The notes beneath the pieces are model-generated. The model was not told where the DNA came from. It saw only the letters and a list, made by a program, of their open reading frames with translations, and ran no database searches. 64,000 bases of DNA from Anaerolineae bacterium (GTDB lineage Bacteria; Chloroflexota; Anaerolineae; Aggregatilineales; Phototrophicaceae): positions 1-64,000 of the forward strand of contig JAJEBK010000014.1 in NCBI GenBank assembly GCA_022823945.1. The letters are read 5' to 3'. The position numbers were made by a program, and so were the translations under genes. The first letter of the stretch is position 1. The number at the start of each line of letters is the position of its first letter. Shown one piece after another: positions 4,689 to 56,681 of the stretch.

Positions 4689-5072
4689 ATGGACATAATA
4701 GAATACGACCAGCTAGCCAACTGGCTCACCCGCTGCCGTGCAATCGTCAAGAAGATCGACACCGCGCAGGATTACTTGCAGCCCGACTTGCCTCTCTCGG
4801 CCAGCGAAAACCTGGACTACGCCAAGCAGGAAACCAAAGCGCTGGAGCGCGAGATCAATCTGCGCGTCAAGGTACTGCACACGAAACTACAAAACGAACT
4901 GCCCTTACAGGCGAAATCTGGCAGGCGATTGAAACAGAAGCAACACGCCAATTGCCCGTATGAAGATTTGAGGCAGAATCGGGCGACCAGACAGATCGCC
5001 CCTGCTCTTGCTGGCAAAGCGCTCGAACAGCTTATTCGCAAGCGCCTTCGGTCTGTAGCAGGTCGATGCTGA
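4689..5072 (+). CDS. Hypothetical protein (C-terminal part doubtful)
   Basis: ORF only; N-terminal ~75 aa look protein-like (MDIIEYDQLANWLTRCRAIVKKIDTAQDYL...); the tail overlaps the convergent gene. Confidence 0.3.
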   Translation: MDIIEYDQLANWLTRCRAIVKKIDTAQDYLQPDLPLSASENLDYAKQETKALEREINLRVKVLHTKLQNELPLQAKSGRRLKQKQHANCPYEDLRQNRATRQIAPALAGKALEQLIRKRLRSVAGRC

Positions 5073-7155
5073 TCCAGCCGCTTTGACCGAGATAGTCGAC
5101 CAGGAACCAATTGGCCGTGCGCCCTTCCACCGACATCGCGATATTGTAGGGCACAAGCGCCAGGATGTTGCTGCCGGCTGGCGCATCCCGCAACTGGGCG
5201 ACATTGCTGGTGGTAACCTGACATTCCCGCAACGGGATCGACTCGGCATCGGTCAGCGGCGCCACATGCACAACCTTGCCCGCGCCCGGCACCTGCGCGC
5301 AGTACATGCCGCCTTTTGCATAGATCGAAAGCCGCGCTACCAGCGCCGGGAAGGTGCTGGCATCTTCAAAGACCACCGTGCCGGCACCGTTGAAGCAGAA
5401 CTCGACCCCCGCCGCGACTTCGCCCCAGATATTCAACGCTTGCTCTACACCGGCATTCATCAGCGGGTGCTTGTCGATATCGGCGATGACCACCGGCTGG
5501 CAGCGCACATCATTGCTGACAGTCAGCACCAGATAACCGGCTGGCACATCGGGGCAGATATAAGGCTCTTCCGGAGACTGAGGATAACAGTTGGGCACTT
5601 CGATAATCTGACCGACGCTCAGGATATCGTCGGAGAGTTGATTGAGCTCGTGCAGCGCCTCGACCGTGGTGTCGTATTGCAGCGCGATGCGGTAGAGGTT
5701 TTCGCCAGCCGCTACAACATGCTCGCAGACGGGCAGCGGCGTCGGCGTCACTGTCGGCGTCACTGTCGGAGTTGGAGGTGGTGGCGGGTTGGTCGCTGGT
5801 GGTGACGTCGGTGCTGGTGGTGGGTCGGGCGGGTCGGGCGGATCAGGCGGGTCGGGCACCGGGAATTCCCAGGCACCAATGTCACAAGCAGAACCTTGGG
5901 GACGCCGCGTATCGACCACATCATCGTCCGGGTCGTCCAACTGGAGGCAAAGATCATTATCGGCAGCATCAATCGCCGGGTTGCCCTCTAGCAACTCGTG
6001 ATAAATGACATCCTCAATTGCTCGCAGCGAGCTCAGTTTCAGCGCCGCCAGTTCTTCTTCAGCAGACTGGATGCTCAATTCAGCATCGTCCCCAGCCGCT
6101 TGCGCTTGTGATTCGGTATTGGCGTCAGGGCAGGAGTTGTCCTGAATGTAATTGGCTGAATTGTCCAGGATGCTGTAGGGGCTAATGCCAGGATCGCAAT
6201 GGAGAATGTCGCCAGCCAGCGCGCCGGATATCCAGGTGTTGCCGATGCGCAATGTGGCATTGATGCCGGTCATGGCGATCGAGCCGCCGCGCTCCGTTGC
6301 CGTGTTGCTCGTGAATGTATTGTGCACCAGCACCACCGAACCCGTTGAGACCAAATCTGCCCCGGCGTTGATTGCGCCGCCCTCGCGCGCGCTGTTGCTG
6401 TTGAGCGTCGTGTTGTGCATCACGAGATCCCCATTCCAGATCTCAATCACGCCGCCTTCATCCGCGCTGTTGCTCTGGAAGCCGCTCTTCTTGATTTCCA
6501 CTGTGCCGCCAGCCGCATGGATCGCGCCGCCATCCTGAGATGCCGCGTTGCCAGAGAACATGCTCTGAGAAATCGCCAGCTTGTGCGTGTTGTCGGGAGT
6601 GCCGGCAATGTATATGCCAGCGCCGCCGCCACGACCAGCGATGTTATTCTTCACGACGGTGCTGGTGAGCGTGACTCTGGCATCGTTGGCATAGATGCCG
6701 CCGCCCGAATCCAGCGCCTGGTTGTTTTCTATGCTGCTGTTCGTGAGCGTGAGGCTGCCGCCGTCAATATAAAAAGCCCCGCCGCGCGTGCCGGTCAAGC
6801 CGTTGCTGATTGTCAGGTTGCGGATGGTGACATTGGCGTTATCAATCGTAAAGATAGCGCTCAAATCAGCAGCTGAAAGCGTGTTGTCGCCGCCATCAAT
6901 GGTGAGATCAGCAGTGATGGTGGGCAGCGCCGAGCCGCCCAAAGTTACATCGCTGGTCAGCGTGATTGTATCGGCACCGCTGCCGGCTGTGCATCTGCCT
7001 TGCACCAGATCGAGGTTGGCGGATACGATGGCGGCGCTGAGCGAGCAGTCTTCGTCCACAGATATGCTAGCCGCGAGAACGGGCGCGCCGGACAAGCCAA
7101 CAACCAAGAGCAGCCAGAGTATGATTCGAGCCAATGCGGCGCGTATATGACACAT
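5032..7155 (-). CDS. Secreted right-handed beta-helix (choice-of-anchor/CSLREA-like) protein with Pro-rich linker, LysM and SH3-like C-terminus
   Basis: Signal peptide; ISVDEDCSLSAAIVSANLD N-terminus; repeated GGxIxxxxxxxxxxNSxFxxNxA; PDPPDPP/TPTVTPTVTP linker; LysM CEHVVAAGENLYRIALQYDTTVEALHELNQL; SH3-like VAQLRDAPAGSNILALVPYN...WFLVDYLGQSGWIS. Confidence 0.85.
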   Translation of the reverse strand: MCHIRAALARIILWLLLVVGLSGAPVLAASISVDEDCSLSAAIVSANLDLVQGRCTAGSGADTITLTSDVTLGGSALPTITADLTIDGGDNTLSAADLSAIFTIDNANVTIRNLTISNGLTGTRGGAFYIDGGSLTLTNSSIENNQALDSGGGIYANDARVTLTSTVVKNNIAGRGGGAGIYIAGTPDNTHKLAISQSMFSGNAASQDGGAIHAAGGTVEIKKSGFQSNSADEGGVIEIWNGDLVMHNTTLNSNSAREGGAINAGADLVSTGSVVLVHNTFTSNTATERGGSIAMTGINATLRIGNTWISGALAGDILHCDPGISPYSILDNSANYIQDNSCPDANTESQAQAAGDDAELSIQSAEEELAALKLSSLRAIEDVIYHELLEGNPAIDAADNDLCLQLDDPDDDVVDTRRPQGSACDIGAWEFPVPDPPDPPDPPDPPPAPTSPPATNPPPPPTPTVTPTVTPTPLPVCEHVVAAGENLYRIALQYDTTVEALHELNQLSDDILSVGQIIEVPNCYPQSPEEPYICPDVPAGYLVLTVSNDVRCQPVVIADIDKHPLMNAGVEQALNIWGEVAAGVEFCFNGAGTVVFEDASTFPALVARLSIYAKGGMYCAQVPGAGKVVHVAPLTDAESIPLRECQVTTSNVAQLRDAPAGSNILALVPYNIAMSVEGRTANWFLVDYLGQSGWISIDLLQTEGACE

Positions 7156-7209
7156 AGAATAGCCGTCCTTATCTATACAATCGCCAGCGGCACAGGCTGA
7201 CTCTCGCGC

Positions 7210-7237
7210 ATTCTATTGCAGAGTGAAAAAGCGGCAA
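7210..7237 (-). promoter_or_regulatory. Putative promoter of upstream-conserved repeat unit, copy 1 (TTGCCG-16-TAGAAT on minus strand)
   Basis: Conserved with the copy at 9673-9700, about 55 bp before the start codon in both. Confidence 0.4.
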
Positions 7238-7406
7238 GCCGATTCACAATGGAATCCGCGATTGTCGCTCGCAGCGTTGGAATATGTTGCAAGTCGACAG
7301 CGCCTCCCTGCCCGATCTCTTTTCATGGCGGGGAAGCCGATGCGTTCGACAAGTAGCACTGCCCCCTCGCGCAACAAGCGGAGGGGGACCTGCAGGGGAT
7401 GTCCGA

Positions 7407-9617
7407 TTATTCGCAAGCGCCTTCAGTCTGCACCAGGTCGAGGCTGATCCAGCCGCTTTGGCCGAGATAGTCGACCAGGAACCAATTGGCAGTGCGCGCC
7501 TCCGCCGACATCGCGATATTGTAGGGCACAAGCGCCAGAACATTGCTGCCGGCTGGCGCGTCCCGCAACTGGGCGACATTGCTGGTGGTGACTTGGCATT
7601 CTGTCAGCGGGATAGACTCGGCATCGGTCAGCGCCGCCACATGCACAACCTTGCCCGCGCCCGGCACTTGCGCGCAGTGCATGCCATCTTTTGCATAGGT
7701 CGAGAGCCTCGTCACCAGCGCTGGCGAGCTGCCGGTGTCTTCATAGACCACCGTGCCGGCACCACTGAAGCAGAACTCGACCCCCGCCGCAACTTCGCCC
7801 CAGATATTCAACGCCTGCTCCACGCCAGCATTCATCAGCGGGTGCTTGTCGATATCGGCGATGACCACCGGCTGACAGCGCACGCCCTTGCTGACGGTCA
7901 GCACCAGATAGCTGGCTGGCACATCGGGGCAAATGTACGGATCTTCAGGCTGTTGCGGTTGACAATCGGGCAAATCAATCACCTGGCCGATGCTCAAAAT
8001 ATCGTCGGAGAGTTGATTGAGCTCGCGCAGCGCCTCGACCGTGGTGTTGTATTGCAGCGCGATGCGGGTGAGGTTTTCGCCAGCCGCTACAACATGCTCG
8101 CAGACGGGCGGCGGCGGCGGCGTAGCTGTCGCAGTTGGCTGATCGGGTGGCGGTTGGCTGATCGCTGTGGGCGTCGGCGAGGCTGGTGGTAACGTAGGCG
8201 AGGCCGGTGGATCGGGCGAATCGTCATCGTCTGTCTCAGGGTCGGGCGGATTGAGTGGCGGGCTGGGACCATCAACCGGGAATTCCCAGGCGCCAATGTC
8301 GCAAGCGGAGCCTTGGGGACGCCGCGTATCGACCACATCATCTTCCGGGTCGTCCAACTGGCTGCAAAGGTCATTATCGGCGGCATCAATCGCCGGGTTG
8401 CCTTCCAGCAACTCGTGATAAATGACACCCTCAATTTCTTGCAGCGAGCTCAGTTTCAGCGCCGCAAACTCCTCATCAATGGTCTGGACAACCAGCTCGG
8501 TGTCTTCTGCAACCACATACACCACAAACGGTTCCACATTTTCGGCGCTTGCTTGCGCTTGAGCTTGTGAATCTGCATCTGCTCGATCGGGACAGGAGTC
8601 GTCCTGAATATAATTGGCTGAGTTGTCCAGGATGCTGTAGGGGCTAATGCCAGGATCGCAATGCAGAATGCCGCCAGCCAGAATGCCGGATATCCAGGTG
8701 TTGCCGATGCGCAATGTGGCATTGATACCGGTCATGGCGATCGAGCCGCCGCGCTCCGTTGCCGTGTTGCTCGTGAATGTATTGTGCACCAGCACCACCG
8801 AACCCGTTGAGACCAAATCTGCCCCGGCGTTGATGGCGCCGCCCTCGCGCGCGCTGTTGCTGTTGAGCGTCGTATTGTGCATCACGAGATCGCCATTCCA
8901 GATCTCAATCACGCCGCCTTCATCCGCGCTGTTGCTCTGGAAGCCGCTCTTCTTGATTTCCACTGTGCCCCCAGCCGCATGGATCGCGCCGCCATCCTGA
9001 GACGCCTCGTTGCCAGTGAATACGCTCTGAGAAATCGCCAGCTTGTGCGTGTTGCCTGTTGTGCCGGCAATGTATATGCCAGCGCCGCCACCGCGACCGG
9101 CCGTGTTATTCTTCACGACGGTGCTGGTGAGCGTGACTCTGGCATCGTTAGCATAGATGCCGCCGCCCGAATCCAGCGCCTGGTTTTCTTCTATGCTGCT
9201 GTCCGTGATTGTGAGGCTGCCGACATCAATGTGAATCGCCCCGCCGCGCGTGCCAGTCAAGCCATTGGTGATTGTCAGGTTGCGAATGGTGACATTGGCA
9301 TCTTCAATACGAAAGATGGCGCTCTTTTTGTCAGCCGAAATCGTGTTGCCGGCGCCATCAATGGTCAGATCGGCGGTGATGATGGGCAGCGCCTCGCCAG
9401 TCAAGGTGATATCGCTGGTCAGCGTGATTGTATCGGTGCCGCTGCCGGCTGCGCATTTGCCTTGCGCAATGTCAAGGTTGGCAGACCCGATGGCGGCAAC
9501 AATTGTGCAGTCTTCGTCCACAGATATGTCAGCCGCAAGCACGGGCGCGCCAGACAAGCCCACAGCCAGGAGCAGCAAAGGCAAGAAACGAGCAGAAAAA
9601 GCGCGTACATGACACAT
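7407..9617 (-). CDS. Paralogue of the 5032-7155 beta-helix/LysM/SH3 secreted protein
   Basis: Same domain order; long near-identical block (GGGIYANDARVTLTSTVVKNN...NYIQD.SCPD); start MCHVRAFSARF aligned with MCHIRAALARI of the first copy rather than the longer ORF start. Confidence 0.85.
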   Translation of the reverse strand: MCHVRAFSARFLPLLLLAVGLSGAPVLAADISVDEDCTIVAAIGSANLDIAQGKCAAGSGTDTITLTSDITLTGEALPIITADLTIDGAGNTISADKKSAIFRIEDANVTIRNLTITNGLTGTRGGAIHIDVGSLTITDSSIEENQALDSGGGIYANDARVTLTSTVVKNNTAGRGGGAGIYIAGTTGNTHKLAISQSVFTGNEASQDGGAIHAAGGTVEIKKSGFQSNSADEGGVIEIWNGDLVMHNTTLNSNSAREGGAINAGADLVSTGSVVLVHNTFTSNTATERGGSIAMTGINATLRIGNTWISGILAGGILHCDPGISPYSILDNSANYIQDDSCPDRADADSQAQAQASAENVEPFVVYVVAEDTELVVQTIDEEFAALKLSSLQEIEGVIYHELLEGNPAIDAADNDLCSQLDDPEDDVVDTRRPQGSACDIGAWEFPVDGPSPPLNPPDPETDDDDSPDPPASPTLPPASPTPTAISQPPPDQPTATATPPPPPVCEHVVAAGENLTRIALQYNTTVEALRELNQLSDDILSIGQVIDLPDCQPQQPEDPYICPDVPASYLVLTVSKGVRCQPVVIADIDKHPLMNAGVEQALNIWGEVAAGVEFCFSGAGTVVYEDTGSSPALVTRLSTYAKDGMHCAQVPGAGKVVHVAALTDAESIPLTECQVTTSNVAQLRDAPAGSNVLALVPYNIAMSAEARTANWFLVDYLGQSGWISLDLVQTEGACE

Positions 9618-9672
9618 AGAGTAGCCGTCCTTATCTACAACGGTCGCCAGCGGCACAGGTTGACTCCCGCGC

Positions 9673-9700
9673 ATTTTATTGCAGAGTGAAAAAGCGGCAA
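9673..9700 (-). promoter_or_regulatory. Putative promoter, copy 2 (TTGCCG-16-TAAAAT on minus strand)
   Basis: See copy 1 at 7210-7237. Confidence 0.4.
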
Positions 9701-9823
9701 GCCGATTCACAATGGAATCTGCGATTGCCCTGCCCGACGAGGCAGCCCGCTTGAATTCGCGCGCCTGCGCTCGCATAATCTGAATTGGTGACCGATCTTC
9801 ACAAACCCGGCATTCACTGTTCT

Positions 9824-17924: not shown

Positions 17925-17946
17925 CCAAAGCGGGCGAGTCGCCGCC

Positions 17947-18071
17947 TCGCCCCTACGCGCGGCTGTCTTTGGGACGGAGAAGCGCGCGACCCAATGGCTC
18001 GCCCCTACGCGCGGCTGTCTTTGGGACGGAGAAGCGCGCGACCCAATGGCTCGCCCCTACGCGCGGCTGTC
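17947..18071. repeat. 52-bp tandem repeat (~2.4 copies)
   Basis: tcgcccctacgcgcggctgtctttgggacggagaagcgcgcgacccaatggc repeated with period 52; followed by G13 at 18072-18084. Confidence 0.9.
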
Positions 18072-18158
18072 GGGGGGGGGGGGGCGAGGGTGGTCAAGCC
18101 AGCGACTTGCAAATCGCTGTTATAATGCGGCTTGTCGTCAGTCTATGAGTCGAGGCAA

Positions 18159-22689: not shown

Positions 22690-22803
22690 TCCCCCACCCC
22701 AAACCCCTCCCCCAAAATGAGAGAGGGGCTTATATTCCGCGGAATCGGAATCGCTTGCGCGTGCTTTGCCTCCCCCTGACCTGTCGGGAGGACCGAAGGG
22801 GGT
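22690..22803. repeat. Family A half-element followed by family B half-element
   Basis: CCCCCACCCCAAACCCCTCCCCCAAAATGAGAGAGGGG and CCTCCCCCTGACCTGTCGGGAGGACCGAAGGGGGT. Confidence 0.8.
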
Positions 22804-29234: not shown

Positions 29235-29330
29235 ACCCCCCTCAATCCCCCCGACAGGTCAGGGGGAGGCGAATACCTTGACTCCCCTCCCTGACTCGTC
29301 GGGGAGGGGCTGGGGGAGGGGTTGGCCGTC
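29235..29330. repeat. Family B palindromic repeat
   Basis: ACCCCCCTCAATCCCCCCGACAGGTCAGGGGGAGG...CTCCCTGACTCGTCGGGGAGGGGCTGGGGGAGGGGTTGG. Confidence 0.85.
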
Positions 29331-54237: not shown

Positions 54238-54726
54238 ATGCCGATATCGGACTACATCAAGAAGATCCGCGCCAAGATCGGCAAGGACTTGCTGCTCGTG
54301 CCGGGTGTGACGGCTGTCGTCATCAATGACCACGCCGAAATCCTGCTGCAGCTGCGACGCGACACAGGCACATGGGCGCCACCGAGCGGCAGCGTCGACC
54401 CGGGTGAGACCATCGCCGAGTGCGCTATTCGCGAAGTCCTGGAAGAGACTGGCATCACAATCTTGCCAGAAGCTGTCGTCGCCGTGCTCTCCGGCACAGC
54501 ATACAATGTGACCTACCCCAACGGCGACAAACTGGCGACAGTGACGACCGTGTTTCGCTGCCGGCCAATGGATGATTCTGCGCCGCGGGTCAACGACGAC
54601 GAGTCACAAGCTATCCGCTATTTCCGCTGCGATGCGCTGCCTGAAAATATGTTGCCGCGCCACCGCTGGATGATCGGCTTGGCGCTGGATGATGGCGAGG
54701 GCGTTTACTTCGACCCGTCGTCGTAA
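54238..54726 (+). CDS. NUDIX hydrolase
   Basis: GSVDPGETIAECAIREVLEETGI Nudix box. Confidence 0.9.
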   Translation: MPISDYIKKIRAKIGKDLLLVPGVTAVVINDHAEILLQLRRDTGTWAPPSGSVDPGETIAECAIREVLEETGITILPEAVVAVLSGTAYNVTYPNGDKLATVTTVFRCRPMDDSAPRVNDDESQAIRYFRCDALPENMLPRHRWMIGLALDDGEGVYFDPSS

Positions 54727-55952
54727 ACCGCGCGGAAGCCCTCGCGTGCAAATTCGGACGGCCACTCGTCTGTCGCACAGAACTGCGCCCCCAGCCGCCC
54801 AATCGCATCGGACGACTTGGCCGCATAGCCATTGCCGCCGGTCGTCACATAGATGCGTCCTGCATCCAGCGCGTCGATATAGGGGTTGCCATGCGCCGTA
54901 TTGGTGATCAGGCAGGGCACGCTGTGATACGACTCCGCCCGCAAGCCAGGAATCATCCTGTGCAGCGCTTCTTTCATCGCCTCGGCGATATCTTGGCGGC
55001 CATCGGTGTGGAACCAGCCCAGCAATTCACTGTCGTTGTGGCGCGCATCAAAGAAGGGCTCGGGCGCTGGCAATTCATCTGTGTTGCCGCTTAGTCCCAG
55101 CTTGATATAAGTTTTGCCATCGGGATAAGGCACAGGCGGCAGCATGTACAGCGAACTGACATCCTCATGCGCGAAAGTGCTGATAATCGAGGGCATTGTC
55201 CGCAGGCGCGCGACTTCATCAGGCGCGACTTCCGCCAGCAAGATAGTATGTCCTTTCGTGCGCAGGTCGAGCTTGCTTTCCAGAAGCGTGTTGCTGTAGC
55301 CGCCAGCACACAGCAAGACCTTCCGCGCGCGAATTGCCTCCTCCTGACCTGTCGGGGGGACCGAGGGGGGTTTGCGCGTGTGTATTGTCACGCCATCCTG
55401 CCCGCATTCGATTGCGGCAACGATCTCGCGGATGACCGCCGCCCCATTCGCACCCGCCGCTGCCAGCTGTGCCGCCACCAGTTGACGAGGATTGATATAG
55501 CCTGCCTCGCCGACCTCGTCCCACGCCACGAAATCATCGCTGAAGCGCAGGTAGGGGTGGGCGGCGCGACAACCCTCGGCATCCAGGCGGCTGTGCGGCG
55601 GCGAAAGCTGCTCGGCGCAGGCATCCAGCTCGGCGATGCGTTCGGGCAGGTCGGTCGCGCGCAGACAGCCGGCGCGATGATGAAAGACAATGCCGCTGGC
55701 TCGTTCAATCGCGGGATATTGCGCGATAGACTCCTGCGCCATCTGTCCCCACATCGGGCTGGGGTCAAGCACGCGCGTGATGCGCCCCTGGTCGTAATGA
55801 CTGGCGAAGACACCATCATGCGTCTTGCGATTTCCTGGCTCGTCCGGTCCGATGATACATACGCGGAGGTTCGGGAAATTCACGGTCAAATGTCGCAGCG
55901 CCGCGCTACCCATCAAGCCTTTGCCAATCACCGCGATATCGTACATTGCCAT
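54705..55952 (-). CDS. FAD-dependent oxidoreductase (DAO/sarcosine oxidase-like) with in-frame family B half-repeat
   Basis: IAVIGKGLMGSAALRHL Rossmann; ARKVLLCAGGYSN preceded by insert KPPSVPPTGQEEA. Confidence 0.85.
   Translation of the reverse strand: MAMYDIAVIGKGLMGSAALRHLTVNFPNLRVCIIGPDEPGNRKTHDGVFASHYDQGRITRVLDPSPMWGQMAQESIAQYPAIERASGIVFHHRAGCLRATDLPERIAELDACAEQLSPPHSRLDAEGCRAAHPYLRFSDDFVAWDEVGEAGYINPRQLVAAQLAAAGANGAAVIREIVAAIECGQDGVTIHTRKPPSVPPTGQEEAIRARKVLLCAGGYSNTLLESKLDLRTKGHTILLAEVAPDEVARLRTMPSIISTFAHEDVSSLYMLPPVPYPDGKTYIKLGLSGNTDELPAPEPFFDARHNDSELLGWFHTDGRQDIAEAMKEALHRMIPGLRAESYHSVPCLITNTAHGNPYIDALDAGRIYVTTGGNGYAAKSSDAIGRLGAQFCATDEWPSEFAREGFRAVYDDGSK
55336..55372. repeat. Family B half-element inside the FAD oxidoreductase CDS
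   Basis: GCCTCCTCCTGACCTGTCGGGGGGACCGAGGGGGGTTT, close to 22766-22803 and 45045-45082. Confidence 0.88.
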
Positions 55953-56307: not shown

Positions 56308-56673
56308 ATGAGCAAACACAGCAGCCAGGTGCCCGCGGACAAGCTGGCGCTCTACAGACAACTGATTGATGCGCATCCAGAGATTGAATTGCGAGGCGGC
56401 CTGAAGTTGCCGTACACCTCGCATCAAGGCAATATGTTCAGCCAGTTGACCAAAGCCGGGGTGTTGGGCTTGCGCATGGGAAAAGCCGAGCGCGCAGCCT
56501 TCATGGCAGAATTTGACGGGGACTTGCTGGAGACTTATGGCACCATTATGAAAGAATATGTCGCAGTGCCCGATCATCTGCTCGAAGACACCCAGCGCTT
56601 GCTGCCTTATCTCGAACAGAGTTATGCCTATGCGAAGACGCTCAAGCCACAGCAGCGCAAGCGCAAGAAATGA
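56308..56673 (+). CDS. Conserved hypothetical protein (possibly TfoX-N/MmcQ-like)
   Basis: HQGNMFSQLTKAGVLGLRMGKAERAAFMAEF; family assignment tentative. Confidence 0.6.
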   Translation: MSKHSSQVPADKLALYRQLIDAHPEIELRGGLKLPYTSHQGNMFSQLTKAGVLGLRMGKAERAAFMAEFDGDLLETYGTIMKEYVAVPDHLLEDTQRLLPYLEQSYAYAKTLKPQQRKRKK

Positions 56674-56681
56674 GGACAGCG

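Follow-up and report, generated by a model that had tools for sequence, protein, structure and literature searches.

A 36-nt segment within the gene of an FAD-dependent oxidase, at positions 55,336–55,371 of the window (the whole 64,000-nucleotide stretch analysed here), is a copy of a short hairpin repeat, which we call the B repeat. We conclude with high confidence that this non-autonomous repeat was inserted into a surface β-hairpin turn of the enzyme before the genomes G000, to which the window belongs, and G003 split, and that it has since been passed on as part of the coding sequence. The analysis establishes the identity of the repeat, its in-frame position, its derived state relative to orthologues, and its location in a predicted loop; at least four further genes show the same result.

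Results

The B repeat family

The B consensus, GCCTCCCCCTGACCTGTCGGGGGGACYGAGGGGGGT, is a 36-nt unit with sharp ends across 107 aligned copies. The oxidase segment (plus strand) differs from this genome-wide consensus at one of 36 positions. The original prediction, which had named it an in-frame B-family repeat, gave its coordinates, sequence, frame, and peptide correctly. The unit is built from a hairpin and a conserved G/C-rich tail, and its centroid fold is a 9-bp stem with a tetraloop. The stability of the G000 hairpins was not above that of shuffled sequences. The hairpin is nevertheless supported by related repeats in a few distant genera of a class-wide sample of 150 genomes, because a stem pair changes in them from G-C to C-G while the tail is unchanged; G119 and G147 are distant class members with such repeats. 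No frame of the C-rich strand of the consensus contains a stop codon, whereas at least one frame of the G-rich strand contains one. Tandem units are spaced 39 nt, a multiple of three, and tandem growth therefore preserves the reading frame.

The 3.51-Mb genome of G000 contains 130 copies with up to three mismatches, and the reversed-pattern control gave none. Four copies lie in the 64-kb window, against zero expected from dinucleotide shuffles. Apart from the oxidase copy, these are located at 29,235–29,270 (minus strand) and 45,044–45,079 (plus strand), both intergenic and adjoining an A-type hairpin, and at 22,766–22,802 (plus strand). In the pattern count, these three copies stand at 29,236–29,263, 45,051–45,078, and 22,775–22,802, respectively. 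The original prediction had placed copies at 22,766–22,803 and 45,045–45,082 between genes; the latter is indeed intergenic, but the former runs into the 5′ edge of a called ORF and is probably intergenic, upstream of the real start. The window also holds other repeats: three 52-nt tandem units in an intergenic region (17,928–18,083), the last of which ends in a G run, and, within 5,032–9,727, two extended blocks of similar sequence (89–96% identity), separated by approximately 2.4 kb.

The repeat is abundant in G003 (157 copies), G000 (130), and G030 (118), moderate in G027 (21), and rare in the other congeners (0–6 copies, with a single copy in G014). It was not found in 27 sampled genomes of other genera. 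With a loop-tolerant pattern, the counts were 142 in G000, 161 in G003, 163 in G030, and 36 in G027. A four-gene tree relates these genomes as (((G003,G000),G030),(G027,G014)). The named matches of the oxidase are Anaerolineae/Chloroflexi MAGs, and isolate names hint at a possible association with sponges.

Placement relative to genes

We analysed 457 kb of sequence around 114 of the approximately 142 copies found with the loop-tolerant pattern, using gene calls from a home-made codon-bias gene finder. Sixty-seven copies were placed between genes, 22 at gene ends, and 25 inside ORFs, some of which are doubtful; approximately 14 of these ORFs look real on inspection. The repeat is thus depleted in coding DNA (25/114 versus approximately 85% coding sequence, p = 8e-51). 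The C-rich strand is the sense strand in 19 of the 25 ORF-internal copies, and it is read in all three frames, as would be expected if the repeat is tolerated and no single peptide is favoured. Of the copies not embedded in an ORF, 27 have their C-rich tail end no more than 10 nt from a gene 3′ end, against one for the head end. Nine copies start on the final base of the stop codon itself. Intergenic copies throughout G000 mostly share one orientation and directly follow stop codons.

The host oxidase and its insert

The host gene (54,705–55,952, minus strand) encodes a 415-residue FAD-dependent oxidase of the DAO family, an assignment on which the Pfam match (DAO, 1.1e-33) and the fold of the model agree. 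The AlphaFold model (pLDDT 89.8, pTM 0.91) is closest in the PDB to N-methyl-tryptophan oxidase (MTOX, 2uzz), Thermomicrobium sarcosine oxidase, and monomeric sarcosine oxidases. This model was built with paralogues added; it replaced a model from near relatives only, which had a pLDDT of 53. The insert comprises 13 codons (55,335–55,373, minus strand; KPPSVPPTGQEEA, residues 194–206), for which the C-rich strand of the repeat is the sense strand. Structure prediction, proposed originally as a check, places it in a loop joining β strands 187–193 and 206–214, with a model confidence of 73–75, below that of the core. In the model, the insert is a surface loop at a β-hairpin turn.

In the alignment of DAO homologues, 19 of 22 congeneric orthologues (G030 and 18 others) lack the insert and have a short turn instead, and the solved relative 2uzz aligns with gaps at this position. 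By sequence comparison, the insert is therefore derived relative to the orthologues. G000 and G003 carry it; the form in G027 is two codons shorter, and that in G014 has decayed to approximately 71% identity, counted across 42 nt. Given the tree, this pattern takes two events: either a gain and a loss, or two gains at the same site. The dS between G000 and G003 is 0.35 for the insert, which has only 13 codons, and 0.28 for the remaining gene; over these 13 codons, the similarity fits shared inheritance by the two genomes. The original prediction had held that conservation of the insert in genomes without the repeat family would speak against it. The insert is instead absent from most orthologues, yet it is not confined to repeat-rich genomes, since its decayed form survives in G014 with one B copy; the insertion event is therefore old rather than recent. 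A CGCGCGG motif beside the oxidase repeat resembles the flank of intergenic copies, but we discounted it because GCGCG is present there even in orthologues that lack the insert.

Repeat inserts in other genes

Recurrent coding insertion, as originally proposed, was borne out by a genome scan of B sites against coding frames, which returned several more in-frame copies. Four further G000 genes contain in-frame B copies where orthologues are empty: a sulfatase, an inositol-phosphatase-like gene, a GH116 glycosidase, and a membrane protein. The inositol-phosphatase-like gene has two tandem units and is filled in G000 and G003 only; the membrane protein has three tandem 39-nt units. The sulfatase site is filled in G000, G030, G004, G002, G023, and G024 and empty in G003, the sister of G000; parsimony requires six changes for these six filled taxa, no fewer than with random labels. 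In the GH116 orthologues (L175–L200), one loop holds hairpin-type peptides that differ by species, for example LPPSIPPSQWGEA and ASPHRDGGIERGE. At L106 (G000:C25:5613-5763), tandem units with 39-nt spacing occupy the corresponding position in two neighbouring related genes, in two and three copies.

Adjacent to the oxidase gene, an SMP-30/gluconolactonase gene (56,670–57,614; Pfam SGL, 1.3e-43) contains a diverged B-like in-frame insert, EPLSEPPSGRGEDE, at 57,165–57,206 (plus strand). Among the orthologues seen, only G000 and, in a shorter form, G003 have it. An A-type repeat, related to B, is located at 41,841–41,945 (minus strand) inside a group-1 glycosyltransferase gene (41,288–42,439), and is very probably the glycosyltransferase case to which the original prediction referred.

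Discussion

On our best reading, the B repeat is a non-autonomous hairpin element of Chloroflexota MAGs that is tolerated in genes when it is stop-free, in frame, and located in a turn. It may have spread as a hairpin through single-stranded DNA or template switching, with help from replication and repair or from a trans-acting enzyme. Insertions would then survive selection only if they keep the frame, are read on the strand free of stops, and land in turns that tolerate them. The 13 extra residues are most likely neutral. The insertions showed no target-site duplication, and net insert lengths vary, so that some insertions replaced a few codons. A mobilising enzyme for the B repeat was not identified. 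We considered mobilisation by a RAYT, but G000, G003, G030, and G027, whose genomes are approximately 94% complete, gave no match to the Y1 transposase family (PF01797).

Dedicated machinery that targets gene 3′ ends and particular turns, re-hitting the same loop across species, is an unlikely alternative to passive tolerance of the repeat. It would account for the scatter of the filled sulfatase site over six species with the sister G003 empty, for the different hairpin-type peptides in one GH116 loop, and for the excess of tail ends close to gene 3′ ends. Selection alone would likewise concentrate the survivors in a few tolerant turns, however, and the scatter is explicable by allele exchange between species or by repeated loss; moreover, no enzyme was found. 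Also unlikely is a mobilising system with both orientation and site preference that inserts the hairpin directly behind stop codons and, in separate events in different species, again and again into the same protein turns. If it were true, such a system would keep producing new surface loops.

The decayed version in G014, a genome nearly devoid of the repeat, could be taken to mean that the segment is an old part of the host protein lost by some species, with its likeness to the repeat secondary. This is very improbable, as all deeper congeners and 2uzz lack the segment, and the same 36 nt also occur in unrelated genes and between genes. An assembly or binning artefact deserves the least credence: assemblies break at repeats, and the relatives with names are MAGs, but G003, G027, and G014 have the insert as well, in open frames and differing at synonymous sites, and the adjacent SMP-30 gene is in its proper position. 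The insertion and inheritance of a hairpin repeat thus remains the preferred explanation for the oxidase segment.

On our reading, the B family works like two known kinds of element. Rickettsia palindromic elements (RPE) and their Wolbachia equivalents are palindromic, occur both between genes and in frame within conserved protein genes, and are apparently tolerated (PMC2229807). B copies likewise lie in frame within conserved protein genes whose orthologues lack them; however, RPE are 105–146 bp long (PMC2229807), whereas the B unit is 36 nt with a tandem spacing of 39 nt, and its hosts are Chloroflexota. Intragenic GTAG/CGTC REPs in Opitutus terrae, R. conorii, and Xanthomonas recB are hairpins of 20–40 bp, often grouped, near gene 3′ ends; REP dimers in genes encode 20–30 residues, and recB provides a same-site example (PMC3733652). 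The B repeat resembles them as a short hairpin of high copy number (130 copies) that is found near gene 3′ ends and in genes. In contrast to REPs, its consensus (GCCTCC...GGGGGGT) has no terminal GTAG or CGTC, and none of the four repeat-rich genomes yielded a match to the Y1/RAYT transposase of the GTAG superfamily. The MITE-like units RU-1, RU-2, and RU-3 of enterobacteria are small repeats that form in-frame gene fusions (PMC2759123), but at 103–168 bp they are longer than the 36-nt B unit. Because the tag, length, and transposase features fail, we do not file the B family under RPE or REP; membership in either is not shown.

In-frame palindromic repeats have been described mainly in Rickettsia and in some REP-rich genomes. 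Our literature search found no earlier description of the B repeat family and no report for this Chloroflexota group. The present family provides a clear case in Chloroflexota, where over 30 genomes of one genus allow filled alleles to be compared with empty ones, gene by gene. It thereby offers a natural experiment on the entry of selfish DNA into proteins, on which turns are tolerant, and on the rates at which sites are filled and emptied. Selfish DNA is able to supply proteins with new loops, sometimes at one spot in related species.
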